Origin: Methanocaldococcus fervens AG86
GTDB lineage: Archaea; AGJL01; Methanococci; Methanococcales; Methanocaldococcaceae
Reading direction: 5' to 3'
Length of the DNA stretch: 64,000 nucleotides
NCBI RefSeq assembly: GCF_000023985.1
Contig: NC_013156.1
Span: 124,001-188,000, forward strand
The notes under the pieces are model-generated. The model ran no database searches, was not told the DNA's origin, and saw nothing but the letters and a program-made list of their open reading frames with translations. The position numbers and the translations under genes are program-made. Position 1 is the first letter of the stretch; each line of letters opens with the position of its first letter. Below, piece after piece: positions 4,441 to 49,317 of this stretch.

Positions 4441-5089
4441 ATGAAAAAGGCTTTTGAAAACATGAAAAAAAACAACTTATCATCTTGAAACGCTCCATGA
4501 GATTTTTCTAGAAGAGGATGAACGATACAAAGAGTTCAATGAAAAATTAACAGAAATTCTAACCGATCTTGGCTTCTTTAATGAATTATATCAAGAGAAA
4601 GGAAGACAAATGATATTGGCTGACTATATAGAATATCTCTTTTTAGGAAGAGGGTATTATTCTGTAAAGAAAAAAGAGGACAAATCAAAATTCATAAAAG
4701 CAATACTATATTTTGTGAACATGTTGATGAGGTATGATTCTCTCACTGTAGATGTTGAGCTGAGAAAGAAAGTACTTGATGAACTAGGTAGAGAACGTCC
4801 TCAAATAACTACTGAAGAGGAATATGAACGGTTGAAAAATTTCGATGGAAGTGTTGGCCTTAAAAAGGGAGAATCAGACGCAGACGATAAATTGAACAGG
4901 TATTTTGACACAATATTACCAAAAACAGCTGGTGGGTTATGGCATGAGTTACTGGCATATGTATTCCTACTTAGAAATGATGTGGGATATATTGTTCCCC
5001 TTTTACTATCTCAACGATTGTTAAGTCTTGAAGATCACGTTGTACCCCCAGATTTCCAGGAAGATAAGGGAGGTAGAACACAAGCTTAG
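4441..5089 (+). pseudogene. Frameshifted, truncated restriction-endonuclease-like gene
   Basis: A good ribosome binding site precedes ATG 4441, but the frame stops after 15 codons. Removing one A from the run of eight As near 4467 joins it to a coherent frame running to 5089: MKKAFENMKK, then TTYHLETLHEIF, EEDERYKEFN and onward. The product is rich in charged helices and ends near LLSQRLL...HVVPPDFQ, then a short unrelated tail. In restriction enzymes a segment of this kind can precede the PD-(D/E)xK core, which would be missing here. The restriction assignment is a weak resemblance; the broken state is directly visible. No methyltransferase is adjacent. Confidence 0.5.
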
Positions 5090-5172
5090 TATCTTTAAGG
5101 ACGAGCTCATTAAAGTTGAATCAAAGCTTGAAAATCTCGAACAATGAAAAATAAAATTAACGAAAATGAATT

Positions 5173-5274
5173 TTACTCTTTTATTTTTAGGTGAAAGATA
5201 CTCTCATAATATGGCCTGCGGTCATGTTCTGTCCTATTTAGAACTGGTCGTTTAAACTCTTTTATAAGCTCTAA
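5173..5274 (-). pseudogene. Orphan 33-codon C-terminal coding fragment
   Basis: On the minus strand, a frame with no start codon encodes a protein-like tail including KEFKRPVLNRTEHDRRPY and ending HLKIKE before TAA. Upstream in that frame is a stop at about 5281. The amino-acid texture (charged and aromatic) looks like real protein rather than random AT-rich DNA. I do not recognise the family. It lies between the restriction-like relic and the transposase relic and may be the end of a deleted neighbour gene. Confidence 0.3.
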
Positions 5275-5340
5275 TCTTGTTTATTTGACTATACCTTAGG
5301 CTTAATATAAACTTATAGGAATTAAATTTACTGTTACTTG

Positions 5341-5820
5341 AAAATTGATTGTAAAATACTTTGTTCTTCGTTTTAAGCACTAAGGAAAGCTTTCAACACA
5401 ATTTCTCAATTCGAATCTAATCACTTTGAATTTTAAGCTTAATTTTCTCAACGTTCTGGATGTTACCTAATAAAATCTTTGGCTTATTCGAGCAAAATTT
5501 TAATATGGATAATATTAGTATTGGGGGAATTTCTCATCTTGGAAACATAACTTCTAATCATTCCTTCAATTCAACATCGATGGTAGACCTATAAATATGG
5601 TTTCACTCCTAACCTTTAACTTAGTCTCATCGATTTCAATTAACTTTTTCTCATTTCTTTCTGAATCGTTCAAAACCACTTTATCTTTATGATAGTAAAT
5701 TTTAACCGATTCATAGCTTACATCTCGATTGGAAGAGAAATAAGCTTACTTCCTCAACCACAATCCGAAATAATATAAAAACCCTGCTAAGATTTTAACT
5801 TCTATCGACTTCTTATTCCT
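5341..5820 (-). pseudogene. Decayed IS transposase (IS6/IS240-like DDE type)
   Basis: Reading the minus strand from 5820 gives transposase-like blocks separated by stops and frameshifts: [13 protein letters not shown], then RDVSYESVKIYYHK, then KKLIEIDETKLKV (containing the first catalytic Asp block), then after shifts LRKLSLKFKVIRFELRN with CVESFP and LKRRTKYF. This order matches DDE transposases of the IS6/IS240 type (helix-turn-helix, IDETK strand, then a C-terminal LRN-x-VE-x-F segment with the final Glu). At least three stops interrupt it, so it cannot be active. Terminal inverted repeats were not found. Confidence 0.6.
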
Positions 5821-5988
5821 TTTAAAAAATTCTTCTCCTCAATTCTCCTCTTTATAATTTGTATTGTAGGTTTCAAATTTATTATTTTTTATTGATATAT
5901 CGATAAATACTTAAATTGACAGTCTCTTATGAAGTATACAAAAACTATATATAGACCATTTACAAAAAGTATTTGGAAAGGTTAGGAG

Positions 5989-10336: not shown

Positions 10337-10402
10337 GAATCGCCTCAGTGCTCATACGGCTCATCACAAATCAGCAAAGCCAATCGTCATCATCGGCGAT
10401 TT
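10337..10402 (-). ncRNA. C/D box small RNA (2'-O-methylation guide)
   Basis: On the minus strand all four boxes are exact. The terminal stem arm AATCGCC (10395-10401) is followed by C box ATGATGA (10387-10393), a 12-nt guide, D' box CTGA (10371-10374), a 3-nt spacer, C' box GTGATGA (10361-10367), a second 12-nt guide, D box CTGA (10345-10348) and the closing arm GGCGATT (10338-10344). The symmetric 12/3/12 spacing is typical of archaeal guide RNAs bound by L7Ae, Nop5 and fibrillarin. The local G+C content is far above the flanking DNA, as expected for a stable RNA in a hyperthermophile. It is antisense-oriented between two plus-strand genes. A TATA-like AATATTAAAG lies about 27-36 bases upstream, inside the neighbouring coding region. 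Confidence 0.85.
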
Positions 10403-33778: not shown

Positions 33779-34469
33779 ATGAAGTTTTATATATTTAATT
33801 ACCTTACATTATTTTGTGGTAGCATGATAGGCATCTGCATGCGTTCTAAAAAAGGATTCCTTTTTAATAACAAATTATTGGATTGGGGTTTGCATTACCA
33901 TCCAAAAATAGTGAAAGAAAATAACATTATTGGATATCATGCTCCAATTTTAAATTTAGATGAAAAAACAGCATTCCTATTTTAAAAAATACCATCGAAA
34001 ATATTAAAGGGAGGGATTATTTAACAATCCACCCACACAATGGAAAAAATAAAGATATTGATAAAAAAACTTTTAATTGAAAATCTAACAATAATTAATG
34101 AATTTGCAAAAAGAAATAATGTAAAATTATGCATTGAAAATTTAAGACATGGATTTTCTTCAAATCCGAACAATATAATTGAAATAGCCGACGAAGTGGA
34201 TTGTCTTATAACGTTTGATATTGGGCACAGCCTTATAAAAAAAGGTTAGAATTTTTGGAGATTTGCTCTGAAAGGGTTTATAATTGCCATGTTTATGAGA
34301 TTGAAAGGATGGAAAACATTTACCACCAAAAAATCTCGACAATATAAAGCCAATATTAGATGCTCTTTTAGATATTAAATGTGAGATGTTTTTGATTGAA
34401 TTGATGAACATTGAGGATATTTTAAAAACTGAAAAGATGTTAAGAGATTATTTTGAGATTTATAGGTGA
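33779..34469 (+). pseudogene. Broken sugar-phosphate isomerase/epimerase (AP endonuclease 2 fold)
   Basis: Successive frames give a continuous TIM-barrel protein: MKFYIFNYLTLFC..., IIGYHAPILNLDEKTAF, then after a shift PILKNTIENIKGRDYLTIHPHNG, then LTIINEFAKRNNVKLCIENLRHGF, then ADEVDCLITFDIGHSL, then LEFLEICSERVYNCHVYEIE, then LPPKNLDNIKPILDALLDIK. The HPHNG, CIEN and FDIGHS blocks are the metal-ligand strands of the family. At least four single-base indels, mostly one-base losses in A or T runs, separate the pieces. It begins a run of decayed genes to 38036. Confidence 0.75.
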
Positions 34470-34475
34470 TAATAC

Positions 34476-35222
34476 ATGATTGTTAATGAAAACAGCAATT
34501 TTATTGACTTTAAAAAATCATTTAAAGAGCTAACTTTACCTAATGAAACACTTAAAGTAATTGAGGAAAATGGAATAAAGCTTAGTGAAATAGCAATTGG
34601 GGAGTTCTCAGGAAGGGATAGTGCAGCTGCAATAATTAAAGCAATGGAGGAAGGGGTTGATGTTGTTTTACCCGTTGTTGTATTTACGGGACTGATTATG
34701 GAAATACAGGCACATTTTACAAAAATTGGGAAATTGTAAATAGAAGGATTAAGGAGATTGGTAAAGATAAAATCTTACTACCTCTAAATTTTACGTTTGA
34801 GCCAAAGCTTTGGAATGCGTTAAATGGTAGATGGGCAGTTTTGTTTATAAAAAGATACGGCTACTACAGCCCATGTATTGGATGCCATGCTTATCTAAGG
34901 ATAATGAGAATTCCTTTGGCAAAACATTTAAAAGGAGAGATAATTAGCGGTGAAAGGTTTCACCACAACGGAGATTTTAAAATAGACCAGATAGAAGAGA
35001 TTTTAAATGTTTATAGCAAAATTTGTAAAGATTTTGATGTTAAGTTAATTTTACCTGTAAAACACATAAAGGAAGGGAAGAAGATTAAGGAGATTATAGG
35101 AGAAGAATGGGAACAGGGGAAAAAGCAGTTTCATGTGTTTTTAGTGGAAATTACAGGGATAAAGATGGAAAGGTAATTTTTGAGAAAGAGAGTATTTTAA
35201 AGCTATTGAATGAATTTATATG
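34476..35222 (+). pseudogene. Broken PP-loop superfamily ATPase
   Basis: Joining three frames gives about 250 residues. FSGRDSAAAI (near residue 45) is the PP-loop that binds ATP. It is followed by VDVVLPVVVFTG, a shift, TDYGNTGTFYKNWEIVNRRI, then YYSPCIGCHAYLRIMRIPLAK with a CxxCH pair, GERFHHNGDFK, a second shift, and VSCVFSGNYRDKDGKVIF. Each shift is mended by adding one G (ACGGGA near 34690; GGGGAAAAA near 35115). The PP-loop plus paired cysteines recalls enzymes that activate and thiolate a substrate, so a sulfur-transfer role is suspected. The true function is unknown. Confidence 0.7.
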
Positions 35223-35720
35223 TTTAGAGGATTGGCAAGATTTTTAGGTATGGATTTTATAAAAATTGATAGTTTTGAAGAAGGTATAGATCTAATTCCA
35301 GAATTAGATTATGATTTTATCCATCTACACACAAAGGAACCTGATGAAGCTGCTCATACTAAAAATCCATTGAATAAGGTTAAAGTTATTGAGAAGATTG
35401 ATAAAGCCATAGGTAATTTAAAATTAAATGATGATTTATTGATAATAACTGCAGATCACTCATCACCTTCTGTTGGAAATTTAATCCACTCAGGAGAGAG
35501 CGTTCCAATACTATTTTATGGAAAAAATGTTAGAGTAGATGATGTTAAGGAATTTAATGAGATAAGTTGCTCAAAGGGACATTTGAGGATAATGGGAGAA
35601 GATTTAATGCCTTTAATTTTAAACTATACAGATAGGGCTTTGTTGTATGGTTTAAGGGCTGGAAATAAGTTAAGGCGTTATATACCAAAAGATGATGAAA
35701 TAGAGTTTTTGCAAGAATAG
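35220..35720 (+). pseudogene. apgM: C-terminal fragment of archaeal phosphoglycerate mutase
   Basis: The frame begins inside the family at FRGLARFLGMDFI and runs through YDFIHLHTKEPDEAAHTKN, KVKVIEKIDKAI, LIITADHSSPSVGNLIHSGESVPILFYGKN to the natural C-terminus. The HTKEPDEAAH and TADHSSPS blocks carry metal ligands of 2,3-bisphosphoglycerate-independent mutases of the ApgM type. The N-terminal half of the enzyme, including the catalytic Ser, is absent. The fragment abuts the end of the PP-loop relic, so an internal deletion is likely. Confidence 0.75.
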
Positions 35721-35733
35721 ATGGAGGGATAAC

Positions 35734-36296
35734 TTGATAGAGAAATTAAAAAAGATATTTAAATTGGGTAAAAGAGAAAAAGAAAGCCAGACGGGAAAGG
35801 ATTAATTATATTTGAGAGCACAAAGGATGCAATGAAAGCGGAGAGTATTTTAAAAGATAAGTATAAAATTAAGGTTGTTGCTCCACCGGTGGAGATAAGA
35901 GAGGGCTGTGATTTGGCTATAGAGTATGATTTAGTTGATGAATTTGGAATTAAAAGATTGTTAGAGAATAATAATATAAAACCCCTAAAATTTATTCCTT
36001 TAAACGATTATTCTTTAAAACCTTTAGAGTTAGTAAAAATTAAAGAAGTTGATGGATTTATTTTAGTTAGATGCGGAAATATGAAAATAACTATCGATAA
36101 GGAAGGGAATATAGTTAATATCTCTGGTGGAGGTTGCCCAGATGTTCCTTATTTAGCGTTAAAATTGAAGGGAAGAAATATTAAAGATATTAAAGAGGAG
36201 GAGACACCAAAAAATTTAGGCTTTACTTTATGTGCATACACATTAAATAAAGCGTTTGAAAAGGCAAGGGAATTGGTTATGGAAAATAAAATTTGA
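35734..36296 (+). pseudogene. Frameshifted DUF3343 (putative Se/S carrier-like) gene
   Basis: The gene starts at TTG 35734 after GGAGGG and encodes LIEKLKKIFKLGKREKESQTGK, then stops at about 35802. Adding one base to GGGAAAGG restores GLIIFESTKDAMKAESILKDKYKIKVVAPPVEIREGCDLAIEYD, typical of DUF3343 proteins annotated as putative Se/S carrier-like. The rest carries a MKITIDKEGNIVNISGGGCPDVPYLA segment and a C-terminal helix. One single-base loss therefore disables an otherwise complete 187-codon gene, unless translation restarts at ATG 35832. Confidence 0.6.
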
Positions 36297-36309
36297 AATA
36301 GGGTTGCAA

Positions 36310-36805
36310 ATGAATGGAAAGAAAATAGCAATAGTTTCCCATTGTATATTAAACCAAAATAGTGTTGTTAAAGGTTTGGAGAGGGCAAAAGAGGCATTTA
36401 ATGAAGTTGTTGAAATAATTTTAAATGAAAATTATGGGATAATACAACTTCCATGCCCAGAGATGCTTTATTTAGGAATAAATAGGCGTGGTATGGTTAA
36501 GGAAGAATACAATACTAAAGAATACAGAGAGCTTTGCAGAGAGATTTTAAAGCCAATAATTAAATATTTGAAGGAATATAATAAAGAAGGGTTAAATTTG
36601 TTTTAATTGGGATTGAAGGTTCTCCAACATGTGGAATCTTTAAAACTGTAAGAAAAGAAGGTTTAACGGATGAAAGCGGCATTTTGATAGAAGAGTTTTT
36701 AAAATTTTTATTAAATAAAATATAAAAGTTGAGATGATAGATTATCCAAATGAAGAAAAATACAAATGTTTTATAGAAAATTTAAGAAAAATGTTGGGGG
36801 GATAA
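36310..36805 (+). pseudogene. Frameshifted three-cysteine protein (DUF523/TudS-like)
   Basis: Three frames join to about 165 residues: KKIAIVSHCILNQNSVVKGL, NYGIIQLPCPEMLYLGINRRG, then (after adding a G near 36594) VLIGIEGSPTCGIFKTVRKEG, and (after adding an A near 36720) IKVEMIDYPNEEKYK. The layout CILN..., PCPE and GSPTCG places three lone cysteines in the order seen in DUF523 proteins, where TudS enzymes bind a [4Fe-4S] cluster and desulfurate thiouracil. The gene is broken twice. The family link is motif-based inference. Confidence 0.6.
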
Positions 36806-36807
36806 TG

Positions 36808-37209
36808 ATGAAGATAAAAATTAAAGTTAAGGATTTTGAAGTTGAAGGAGAGCTTTATGAAGATGTTGCACCAAAAACTGTAAGTGCAATAGCTAAGGCT
36901 TTACCAATAAAAGGAATTGTTAATAGGTGGGGGGATGAGATATACTTTGAAACAGATGTCGTTGTTGATGAGGAGGAAAATTCAAAAAAATTTGTTGAAT
37001 TGGGAGATATCACTTATTGGATTCCTGGAAGGGCTATTTGCATTTTCTTTGGAAAAACTCCAATAAGTGATGATAAGATAAGGCCTGCAAGTGCTGTAAA
37101 TGTTATTGGTAAAGTTAAAGATTGGGAAAAGTTTAAAGATGTTTGGGATGGGAAACAATTGAAATATTTAAAGAATGACATATTTTCTAATTTTTATTTA
37201 AATGATTAA
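36808..37209 (+). CDS. Cyclophilin-like-fold protein (COG2164-like)
   Basis: This 133-residue protein has the pattern of small archaeal cyclophilin-like proteins: IKIKVKDFEVEGELYEDVAPKTVSAIAKALP, then RWGDEIYFETDV, LGDITYWIPGRAICIFFGKTPISDD and ASAVNVIGKV. They lack the isomerase active site, and their ligand is unknown. It is the only member of the 33.8-38.0 kb cluster with an unbroken frame. The start is either ATG 36805 or ATG 36808 after a G-run; it overlaps or abuts the stop of the preceding relic, so the ancestral genes were tightly coupled. Confidence 0.7.
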   Translation: MKIKIKVKDFEVEGELYEDVAPKTVSAIAKALPIKGIVNRWGDEIYFETDVVVDEEENSKKFVELGDITYWIPGRAICIFFGKTPISDDKIRPASAVNVIGKVKDWEKFKDVWDGKQLKYLKNDIFSNFYLND

Positions 37210-37219
37210 GGTTGAGATT

Positions 37220-38036
37220 ATGATTATTGCTGGAACTATGCCAATAAAAGGTTTGGATTTGATAGAAGGGAAACCGGAGCTAAAGGGAGAAAATAATTAT
37301 AAACAATAAAGAATTTCCAGTATCTATGGGTACAGGAGCTTTAATAGGGGCTGTTTTGAGGGTTTTGGAGTATTTTGATAACAACAATATTAAAGTAATA
37401 ACTGCTGGAGATATTGGAGAAGGATATGGGAGTTTAAAGATTTATGATAGGTTGAAAGAGGTTGATGATGATTTGTTAGTTATCCATTATATAAAGCCAA
37501 AGATTTCAAAAATTAAAGAGATAGATTTCTCTCCAAAGATTATTGCAGATGCTGGAGGGATGTATGCAGGGAAAGCGGCAAATATTGGAGATAAGTTTTA
37601 TCTCTTTTTGCCGGATGTTGGAGAATTGGCTTTTTTAGCAGATGAAAAAGCCATACATCCTGCCTATGTTAGAGGTTTTATATCAGAGATTGACGATAAA
37701 GAAGTTCCAAAACTTATTGAAAGAGCTTATAAATTAAAGATGCCCAAATATATGATTGTTAAAGGGGAGAACGACTATGTCGTTAAAGAAGGAAAAATTA
37801 TTGACATTATAAAAGAGCCAAAGATAGAGGCAATGGAGTGCATTGGAGGAACGGGAGATACATTAACTGGAATTGTATCAGCTCTAATAAGTGCTGGGTT
37901 TAAAGCAGAGGAAGCTATGAGTTTAGGATGTAGAATAAATAGAAAACTTGGGGAAGTTGTTAATGCTAAGCCAAATACTCAAATTTTGGGAATAATTAAT
38001 GCCATTCCAAAAGTTTTGAATGAATGCATAAAATAA
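37220..38036 (+). pseudogene. Frameshifted ribokinase-like / NAD(P)HX-dehydratase-like gene
   Basis: ATG 37220 encodes MIIAGTMPIKGLDLIEGKPELK and stops at about 37309. Removing one A near 37298 links it to INNKEFPVSMGTGALIGAVLRVLEYF and onward for about 240 residues. The terminal ECIGGTGDTLTGIVSALISAG is the anion-hole and catalytic Asp signature of ribokinase-fold enzymes. ITAGDIGEGYGSLKIYDRL and IIADAGGMYAGKAANIGD are further conserved blocks. The downstream part alone has an ATG at 37326 but lacks the first 35 residues, so activity is doubtful. Confidence 0.65.
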
Positions 38037-38138: not shown

Positions 38139-39167
38139 ATGAAAGTATCTGTCTATGGTGCTGGAAATCAAGATTTGTATGTAAATCAACTAAAGCTACC
38201 AGAGAAGTTTGGAGGAGAACCACCTTACGGCGGTTCAAGGATGGCTATTGAGTTTGCTAAAGCAGGGCATGATGTTGTTTTAGCTGAACCAAATAAAAAT
38301 ATAATGAGCGATGATTTATGGAAGAAGGTTGAAGATGCTGGAGTTAAGGTAGTTAGCGATGATATAGAAGCAGCGAAGCATGGAGAAGTTCATATATTAT
38401 TTACTCCATTCGGTAAGGCAACATTTAACATTGCAAAGAATATTGTAGAACACGTTCCTGAAAATGCAGTTATCTGTAATACCTGTACTGTCTCGCCTGT
38501 TGTTTTATACTATTCATTAGAGCCAATTTTAAGGACAAAAAGGAAAGACGTAGGGATTAGCTCAATGCACCCAGCAGCCGTTCCAGGAACTCCACAACAT
38601 GGGCATTATGTTATTGGTGGAAAAACTACGGATGGCAAAGAATTGGCGACTGAAGAACAGATAAATAAATTGGTAGAACTTGCTAAAAGTGCAGGAAAAG
38701 AGGCTTATGTTGTTCCAGCAGATGTTTCTTCAGTAGTAGCTGACATGGGAAGTTTAGTAACTGCAGTAGCACTTGCCGGTGTTTTAGATTACTACAGTGT
38801 AGGAAGGAAAGTTATAAAAGCCCCTAAAAAGATGATAGAGCATCAGATTATTATGGTTTTACAAACAATGGCATCTCTCGTTGAAACATCTGGCATTGAA
38901 GGGCTGTTAAAAGCGTTAAATCCTGAGCTTTTAATAAAAACTGCCTCATCAATGCATCTATTGGAAGAACAGAAAGATTTAGATGCTGCTTTAGAAATTC
39001 TTAAAAACTTGGATGAAGAATTGAAAAAAGAAGCTAAAAATGCAGAAATAAAACCAACAACACTTGTAGCAGCTCAATCGTTAGTTAAGGAGATAAAAAC
39101 CTTAATAGGTGGGGCTGCTGCTGAAGGAGCTATAAAAAGAAGTGCTAGAAAGTTATTCGAGCATTAA
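38139..39167 (+). CDS. Hmd paralog (H2-forming methylene-H4MPT dehydrogenase-related)
   Basis: This 342-residue protein has an N-terminal Rossmann-like domain and a C-terminal helical dimer domain like [Fe]-hydrogenase. The iron-ligand Cys appears as Cys116 in ICNTCTVSP, and the His of the active-site loop appears in SSMHPAAVPG. The opening GAGNQDLYV aligns with GAGCYRTHA of Hmd, so the catalytic His14 is replaced by Tyr. Such HmdII/III paralogs are thought not to be efficient hydrogenases and may sense or carry the FeGP cofactor. Monocistronic in appearance; it ends 23 bases before the GTPase. Confidence 0.82.
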   Translation: MKVSVYGAGNQDLYVNQLKLPEKFGGEPPYGGSRMAIEFAKAGHDVVLAEPNKNIMSDDLWKKVEDAGVKVVSDDIEAAKHGEVHILFTPFGKATFNIAKNIVEHVPENAVICNTCTVSPVVLYYSLEPILRTKRKDVGISSMHPAAVPGTPQHGHYVIGGKTTDGKELATEEQINKLVELAKSAGKEAYVVPADVSSVVADMGSLVTAVALAGVLDYYSVGRKVIKAPKKMIEHQIIMVLQTMASLVETSGIEGLLKALNPELLIKTASSMHLLEEQKDLDAALEILKNLDEELKKEAKNAEIKPTTLVAAQSLVKEIKTLIGGAAAEGAIKRSARKLFEH

Positions 39168-39190
39168 ATTATTATTTTTGGGGAAGAGTT

Positions 39191-39652
39191 ATGAAAAAAG
39201 AGATAAAGGTTGTAGTTATTGGCTCAAGTGATGTAGGAAAAACAACTTTAATGGAGAATTTAATTGGCAAAATAGGGAAAGTTGAACATAATGGGATTAC
39301 AACAGCAATTGATTATGGTTCATTAAAAATAGATGATAAAAAAATACACTTCTTTGGAACACCCGGACAAAAAAGGTTTGAATTTATGAGAGAATTGGCA
39401 TTGCGAGGGACGGATTTTGCTTTATTGGTTTTAGATGCTTCAAAAGGAGTGACTGAAGAAGATAAAGAAATTATAAAAATGTTGGAATCTAAAAAAATTC
39501 CATATGGGGTTTTCATAAATAAGGTAGATGTTGGAGAGATTGATGCAGAAAAGATTTATAATTTATGTAGCCCAGAATTTATTGCTAAAGGATGTGCAAT
39601 AAAAAAAGAAGGTTTTGATGAGCTCATAAATAAAATCATATCACACGTATAA
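39191..39652 (+). CDS. Small Ras-like GTPase
   Basis: This 153-residue single-domain GTPase has P-loop GSSDVGKTT (residues ~12-20), a switch II-like FFGTPGQKRFEF (with G instead of the usual DxAGQ), and FINKVD as the NKxD guanine motif near residue 117. Its closest styles are archaeal Rab/Arf/SRbeta-like GTPases and the MglA group. It is followed 49 bases later by a Roadblock/LC7 protein, the kind of partner that acts as a GAP or scaffold for MglA. A two-component switch is likely (inference). Confidence 0.82.
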   Translation: MKKEIKVVVIGSSDVGKTTLMENLIGKIGKVEHNGITTAIDYGSLKIDDKKIHFFGTPGQKRFEFMRELALRGTDFALLVLDASKGVTEEDKEIIKMLESKKIPYGVFINKVDVGEIDAEKIYNLCSPEFIAKGCAIKKEGFDELINKIISHV

Positions 39653-39701
39653 TAATTTATATAAATAGTTTGTGTAATATTTAATAATTGAGGTGGAATG
39701 C

Positions 39702-40046
39702 ATGATTGATAGGGCCTTAATAGAGCTAAATAAAACTGAAGGTATTAAAGGTTCAATGGTTGTTGGTAAGGATGGGTTGGTCATAGCCTCCCAGCTGCCA
39801 GGAAATATTGATGCTGAGTTAGTTGGTGCTATGGCTTCAGCATCGTTTGGGGCTGCTGAAAGAACTGCAGCAGAGTTAGGTATGGGTAATTTAGAGCAGA
39901 CAATGATTGAAGGAGAGCATGGAAAAGTTTTGATGGTTGATGCAGGGGAGGGTATTTTAGTAGTTTTAGCTGATGCAAAAGTTAACTTAGGTTTAATAAG
40001 GATAACAATGAAGAGAACTGCAGAAAAGATAAAGGCAATGTTCTAA
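39702..40046 (+). CDS. Roadblock/LC7 domain protein
   Basis: This 114-residue single-domain protein has the Roadblock pattern: a helix ([16 protein letters not shown]), the strand pair [15 protein letters not shown], the long helix [24 protein letters not shown], then [19 protein letters not shown] and [16 protein letters not shown]. Members dimerise and bind small GTPases. The adjacent upstream GTPase is the obvious partner. The start at 39702 is chosen from AGGTGG; the GTG at 39693 overlaps that site. Confidence 0.82.
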
Positions 40047-40047
40047 A

Positions 40048-40983
40048 TTATAAAATAGATGATAATATTGCAATGATTTCATCTATAACCTCTTTGTTTA
40101 ACTCAGAAACATCAATTTTCTTTGTTTCAAATACAACTCCATTTTTTAAAATCCTATCATAGTTTGGACAGATTGTTGTTATTGATTTTTTGTTATCCAA
40201 TTTAATTAAATTGTTGATTTTTTTAGACACTTCTTTAGGATTATCACACTCTATAAATATTGATATTCCCTCATCTTCTTTGAAATATGCTTTTTCAATC
40301 TCTTTTTTAATCATTTTATTTGCCGTAACATATTTTTTGTAAGTTTTTTTAGCATTTAACAATTCTTCTTTTAAAAGTCCAAAGTAATTTATCGTTTTAT
40401 ATGTCTTAGCCACTATTTTAAAATCATTTAAAATATTTCTTAATTTATCTTCAACCTCTCTACTTATTCCCAAAAAACCCCCGTATTCGCAGTTCAATAT
40501 CTTTGGACTTCCGGTAGAGCAGATAACTATATCCCCATATCCACAATCTCCTCCAATTTTTCCTGAAATGTCTTCAATAAATAAAACTTCCTTTTCCTCG
40601 CACAATTTTTTTATTTCTTTTAATGGTTGTGGAGATAAATACCCAGCTAATGATGTTAAAATAATTGATGAATTTTCTTTTATGTTATCTAATTTTTCTA
40701 TATCAATAATCCCCAAATTTGTTTCTATCATTTTAGTTTTTAAATTCAATACCTTCGGGAACTTTAAAAATCCCTGCCAACCTCCCATATTTGGAATAAA
40801 GATATTATCGCTATAGGATTTTGCTATCCACATTGCCAAAAAAACTGCAGAGCTTCCTGAAGGTAAAAAGGTTATTGTATACTCTCTATTTAGCAAATCA
40901 TTTATTATAGCTTCAACTTCTCCTTTATCTCCTTCTTTGTTTATTAATCCATATATATTTGGCCTTCTATGTTTTAGAATCAT
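40048..40983 (-). CDS. PLP-dependent aminotransferase-fold protein (DegT-like)
   Basis: This 311-residue protein has the type I fold pattern of small DegT/DnrJ-like enzymes: [18 protein letters not shown] near residue 40 (phosphate-binding helix start), [26 protein letters not shown] near 130 (Asp that contacts the pyridine nitrogen) and [20 protein letters not shown] near 150, where the Lys could form the Schiff base. The substrate is unknown and there is no sugar-gene context. It is convergent with the roadblock gene (1-base gap) and divergent from the TPR gene. Confidence 0.6.

Positions 40984-49101: not shown

Positions 49102-49317
<216 letters not shown>

Follow-up and report, generated by a model that had tools for sequence, protein, structure and literature searches.

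DUF3343 and YedE were proposed in 2015 as genes of selenium transport and trafficking, with YedE split in two in archaea, and the context lists of that work also include a 2-hydroxyglutaryl-CoA dehydratase-type subunit and activase (Lin et al., PMC5322559). In Methanococcus maripaludis the yedE mRNA rises by 5.28 log2 units (~39-fold) on selenium depletion (PMC11097638). Two further families provide points of comparison, namely the TudS (DUF523) proteins, whose signature consists of three cluster cysteines and a catalytic Glu, Ser and Ser (PMC10611767), and MmNcsA, with cluster cysteines 142, 145 and 233 (PMC10067955). Here we compare with these systems seven gene remnants of Methanocaldococcus fervens, which lie in a stretch of 64,000 nucleotides of its genome (hereafter the window). 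They comprise an isomerase-like, a PP-loop and an ApgM-type gene (module A), a DUF3343 and a ribokinase-like gene with a cyclophilin-like gene as optional member (module B), and a TudS-like gene. We consider it likely that they form a recently inactivated composite locus, in which two unrelated operons were joined and both decayed, a TudS-like gene of Methanotorris type was inserted, and module B is linked to YedE.

The locus and its damage

The remnants lie head to tail on the plus strand, as the original prediction for this DNA had described, between 33,824 and 38,036 of the window; the start of the first gene, formerly placed at 33,779, is corrected to 33,824. The host genome comprises 1,507,251 bases in two contigs and is 99.9% complete, a near-finished assembly. 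The features are listed with the basis of their assignment.

33824..34466, + strand: gene 1 (module A), xylose-isomerase-like TIM-barrel protein, named a sugar-phosphate isomerase in the original prediction, broken; tblastn and nucleotide alignment to intact orthologues of 215 amino acids (aa), PF01261
34476..35220, + strand: gene 2 (module A), PP-loop ATPase with CxxCH, broken, 3' end deleted; orthologues of 267-282 aa
35218..35226, + strand: junction of the ~0.8-kb deletion, PP-loop gene joined to the 3' part of apgM; ends of the alignment matches
35220..35720, + strand: gene 3 (module A), remnant of an ApgM-type phosphoglycerate mutase, C-terminal ~40% only; PF01676, intact orthologues of 428 aa
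35734..36296, + strand: gene 4 (module B), DUF3343/Se_S_carrier protein, broken; PF11823, E=2.7e-12
36310..36804, + strand: gene 5, TudS-related protein of the CD3072 family, broken; a relative matches NF045597
36808..37209, + strand: gene 6 (module B, optional member), cyclophilin-like protein, 3' end frameshifted; PF04126, E=6e-44
37220..38036, + strand: gene 7 (module B), ribokinase-like (Carb_kinase) protein, broken; PF01256
38139..40983: control flank, with an Hmd paralogue (first gene, PF03201), a GTPase-like protein and two further genes; frames intact

Compared with intact orthologues, the seven genes contain 11 small frame-breaking insertions or deletions (indels), nine of which concern a single base (eight losses, one gain). 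The isomerase-like gene has four single-base indels, the PP-loop and TudS-like genes have each lost two single bases, and the DUF3343 and ribokinase-like genes bear deletions of ten and two bases, respectively, both close to the 5' end. A deletion of ~0.8 kb took the 3' end of the PP-loop gene together with the first ~60% of ApgM and fused both genes; the PP-loop match stops at residue ~250 of 276 and the ApgM match starts at residue ~262 of 428. The cyclophilin-like gene had been thought to be the single unbroken member. Its frame is open, but the loss of one base near 37,152 puts the last residues out of frame and replaces the native tail and stop, so that it is rejected as intact and all seven genes are broken. 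Selenocysteine recoding was likewise ruled out as the origin of the broken frames, the breaks being frameshifts and deletions.

No frame-breaking indel was found in the four genes directly downstream (38,139-40,983) when two relatives were aligned. The remaining window is almost filled by frames of at least 150 codons, except for one other sizeable gap at 5.1-6.0 kb (5087-5985, ~0.9 kb), the sole other sizeable stretch without clear long frames. Intact copies of the cluster genes, which the original prediction had recommended seeking in other methanogens, are present in several Methanocaldococcus and Methanotorris genomes, among them at least five congeners.

Two operons and a gene of foreign type

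Gene presence was scored in 36 genomes of the Methanococcales, the single order covered by the survey, and the 27 near-complete ones were used for tests. Only the retrieved loci were used to judge the isomerase-like and ApgM genes, and a weak DUF3343 match in genome G013 (18.9 bits) was scored as absent. DUF3343, the kinase and the YedEa half of YedE have an identical distribution: they are found together in 21 of the 27 near-complete genomes, and none of them occurs in the other six (21/21 versus 0/6; Fisher p=3e-6, which like all p-values given here is merely descriptive and overstates independence, because the genomes belong to one order and are kin by descent). The PP-loop gene is present in 18 of the 21 genomes with module B and in four of the six without it (p=0.3); modules A and B are thus distributed independently. 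The PP-loop trio occurs without DUF3343 and kinase in G009, G013, G023 and G029, and these two occur without the trio in G012, G021 and G028.

The gene order follows the same division. YedE, DUF3343 and the kinase adjoin each other in loci of the Methanococcus type (L105), the Methanotorris type (L016, L017) and others, and in almost every locus examined the PP-loop gene is flanked by the isomerase-like gene and apgM. There are two exceptions. Genome G018 has a longer PP-loop protein with extra insertions (L108:5952-7103, 384 aa), beside which no isomerase-like open reading frame (ORF) was found; in G008 the isomerase-like ORF is short (L107:6352-6553, 67 aa) and is followed by intact genes for PP-loop, ApgM and DUF3343, perhaps a separate loss. 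Among the loci examined, module A adjoins DUF3343 only in Methanocaldococcus, and outside the genus both operons are far apart.

The TudS-like gene has a different history. It occurs at high identity in 12 of the 36 genomes, and an intact relative (L012) matches NF045597 (CD3072) with 176.4 bits (cut-off 130). In the tree the copy in the window clusters with that of Methanotorris (support 0.99) and not with its own genus, unlike DUF3343 and the kinase, which are closest to own-genus copies; the gene apparently comes from another genus. The protein has C12, C49 with E51, and SPTC; the second Ser is replaced by Thr, and its Pfam score of 23.1 is below the cut-off of 34.7.

The cyclophilin-like gene has its full length, or nearly so, in five genomes only; two others retain remnants. 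The closest solved chain of its product is 2nnz, and a scan of genome contigs found the protein in two Archaeoglobaceae, where the rest of the cluster is not beside it. As a separate observation, an insert of an AAA ATPase and a partner that resembles PDC-M38, a candidate defence pair of PADLOC, lies next to the cyclophilin-like gene in two genomes that belong to different genera (L017:10482-12325 and L012:5191-6959), in one of them between this gene and the kinase.

Because of the differing distributions, the association of the module B genes and the placement of the TudS-like gene in the tree, we conclude that this locus brings together two operons and a further gene of foreign type, and is probably not one pathway. 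Both operons would have become neighbours within Methanocaldococcus and subsequently decayed. The module B genes in the window, DUF3343 and kinase with the optional cyclophilin-like gene, would be one half of a YedE-linked sulfur or selenium module, into which a Methanotorris-type TudS-like desulfidase gene was probably inserted.

Module B and a possible route for selenium or sulfur

The profile PF11823 (Se_S_carrier, DUF3343) matches the remnant in the window with 46.4 bits and its intact relative with 63.2 bits (gathering cut-off 25), and C61 within the motif REGCDL is invariant in 15 orthologues. The fold search with DUF3343 gave no match at E<=0.001, and searches of PDB sequences with the kinase and DUF3343 alignments gave no meaningful match. 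The YedEa half reaches 76.4 bits with TIGR04112 (YedE selenium transporter), below the cut-off of 200, and passes PF04143 (Sulf_transp). M. fervens keeps YedEa intact at C1:620,320, away from the DUF3343 and kinase remnants.

Module B is probably connected with the handling of selenium or sulfur. In the proposed mechanism sulfur or selenium would enter in reduced form through the two-part YedE channel and be carried by the DUF3343 protein, on its invariant Cys (REGCDL), to an enzyme further downstream; the kinase may phosphorylate a small organic acceptor. The module could serve as an accessory supply route for times when the preferred selenium is scarce, and as such would be losable without losing selenocysteine.

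Possible roles of module A

The PP-loop family, whose C135, C138 and C222 are conserved without exception in 16 orthologues, has no match in Pfam or NCBIfam, TIGR00269 (TtuA/NcsA) included, and its alignment gave no meaningful match against PDB sequences. The folds nearest to its AlphaFold2 model (predicted local distance difference test score 83) are MnmA, TtuA and YcfA (E 5e-4 to 7e-4), of which YcfA is the PP-loop enzyme of the 6-thioguanine pathway. Homology to TtuA/NcsA was not supported at the profile level, the comparison with TtuA/NcsA-type proteins from the same order being not significant and in a different register. The PP-loop protein may work like the thiolation enzymes, which it resembles in fold. 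The closest solved relative of the isomerase-like protein is MJ1311. An intact ApgM relative scores 349.9 bits with TIGR00306 (cut-off 320), and the window keeps the C-terminal part only. A literature search by Methanocaldococcus jannaschii locus names found nothing relevant.

In our main interpretation module A would thiolate a small sugar or nucleotide phosphate in a reaction that depends on ATP and possibly on an Fe-S cluster. A bolder proposal, in which we have low confidence, is that the three genes represent an undescribed operon, conserved in all five genera of the Methanococcales that were sampled, whose new PP-loop family uses a three-Cys Fe-S site to add sulfur, or selenium, to a small phosphorylated molecule. 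An alternative, which concerns the role of module A and neither the decay nor the division into two modules, is a cobamide or nucleotide salvage operon without sulfur chemistry. The TIM-barrel protein would then have phosphodiesterase or isomerase activity, ApgM would act as mutase or phosphatase, and the PP-loop protein would use ATP to amidate or ligate its substrate. Such an operon would fit the sole NCBIfam match of the TIM-barrel protein, CbiR (NF041277), and the presence of non-sulfur ligases (argininosuccinate synthetase, nitrile synthetase) among the fold matches of the PP-loop model. We regard it as possible but somewhat doubtful, as the CbiR score of 38.6 bits is far under the cut-off of 105, thiolation enzymes lead the fold matches and the three cysteines are invariant.

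Joint loss and the nature of the decay

The original prediction had seen in all seven genes one undescribed sulfur or selenium transfer pathway, lost as a unit. Their joint decay and the sulfur- or selenium-type relatives of several members would agree with this, as would the contiguity of the isomerase-like, PP-loop, ApgM and DUF3343 genes in several congeners and the association of the PP-loop gene (p=0.013) with a double-cubane protein, which is found in 27 of the 36 genomes and is intact in M. fervens at C1:947,253. Nevertheless a single pathway is very unlikely, for the PP-loop trio and the DUF3343/kinase pair each occur without the other, the TudS-like gene is of foreign type and differently distributed, and the two operons are far apart outside the genus. 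The co-occurrence of the families, likewise suggested as a check, holds for DUF3343, kinase and YedE, which are always found together, but not for the PP-loop trio and the TudS-like gene. Similarly, the claimed ties to sulfur or selenium stand for single members (DUF3343 as Se_S_carrier with a YedE-type partner, the CD3072 TudS match and the PP-loop model near thiolation enzymes) but not for the whole cluster.

Returning to the composite locus, its decay left traces beyond the broken frames. Module A and DUF3343 carry 58 changes at 651 positions that are invariant in five relatives; by the same measure, applied to each relative in turn, there are 2-23 changes in ~600. Part of this excess is branch length, because third-position change is higher in the M. 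fervens genome (0.19) than in G003 (0.15), and after normalisation the excess at conserved positions is roughly 1.5-2-fold. Module B was also damaged independently in a second congener, with a frameshift in the kinase, two in-frame TAG codons in YedEa and a replaced C-terminus of DUF3343. There (L091:12869-14900) three ORFs on the opposite strand come after the altered DUF3343; they belong to one family (c5), which also occurs in L096, and look like an inserted element.

That the cluster is alive and its breaks are assembly or sequencing errors is extremely improbable: nine of the 11 small indels are single-base and several lie beside runs of A or G, but the 10-base and ~0.8-kb deletions, the excess of changes at invariant residues, flanks free of such damage and the independent damage in the second congener speak against it. 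Base-calling error is rejected as the cause because of these deletions, the near-finished assembly and the changes at invariant positions, which upholds the earlier claim of genuine decay; read error is possible at single sites and does not explain the damage as a whole.

Several observations weigh against our interpretation, in addition to the overstated independence of the genomes. The kinase shows no excess of amino-acid changes, and third positions hold most changes. The decay of the cluster is genuine but young, because the normalised excess is small and absent from the kinase. The kinase and the cyclophilin-like protein are linked to sulfur or selenium by context only. SelD, which in M. 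fervens has an in-frame TGA, occurs in genomes both with and without module B, so that the module is not tied to selenium use as such. M. maripaludis deleted for yedE showed no clear selenium phenotype (PMC11097638), and selenium transport by the YedE system is for this reason unproven. Since SelD is present with or without it, module B can be no more than an accessory supply route. Selenium use is not being lost in M. fervens, which retains a selenocysteine-type SelD, YedE and the double-cubane protein.

Other features of the window

A C/D-box RNA, sR3 (RF01133, 56.5 bits), lies at 10343-10397 on the minus strand. At 49102-49314 on the plus strand an ORF of 71 aa encodes what we take, by eye, to be an archaeal Hfq/Sm-like protein.

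Comparison with known systems

The broken cluster itself is a case of ordinary gene loss; what it exposes are two gene sets. The first is the conserved three-gene operon of module A, whose PP-loop enzyme has no family name. This enzyme shares with the [4Fe-4S] tRNA thiolation enzymes NcsA/TtuA the PP-loop fold and a CxxC with a distant third Cys (135/138/222, compared with 142/145/233 in MmNcsA), but it has SGRDS in place of the SGGKDS or SGGKDG of the order's TtuA/NcsA-type proteins and lacks their N- and C-terminal zinc-finger cysteines. The best whole-length fold agreement of its model is with YcfA (PDB 9kq7; template modelling scores 0.59/0.73), although at 14% identity the relation is at the fold level only. 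The gene 5 protein resembles the CD3072/TudS desulfidases in its cluster-type cysteines and retained CPE and SPTC stretches, and differs in having Thr for one catalytic Ser.

For module B the description as undescribed was half right, as selenium roles for DUF3343 and the split archaeal YedE had been put forward in 2015, and a 2024 study tested YedE in M. maripaludis. With the 2015 set (PMC5322559) it shares PF11823 with a conserved Cys and an archaeal YedE in two parts. DUF3343 is longer here (181-197 versus 80-100 aa), with a second conserved domain, and neither YedF nor selenocysteine lyase was seen beside it; instead, it is constantly accompanied by a ribokinase-like gene and occasionally by a cyclophilin-like gene. 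The ribokinase-like protein as constant partner of YedE and DUF3343 in the Methanococcales thus defines a newly exposed, testable gene set. Because the kinase is so constant and deletion of yedE alone had no clear phenotype, these genes are new candidates for selenium uptake or trafficking in methanogens. The order YedEb-YedEa-DUF3343-kinase in L105 resembles the yedE operon MMJJ_13000-13010 of M. maripaludis (PMC11097638), a locus-tag assignment that we infer. The operon is functional there, whereas M. fervens has YedE elsewhere in its genome and has lost the DUF3343-kinase half.

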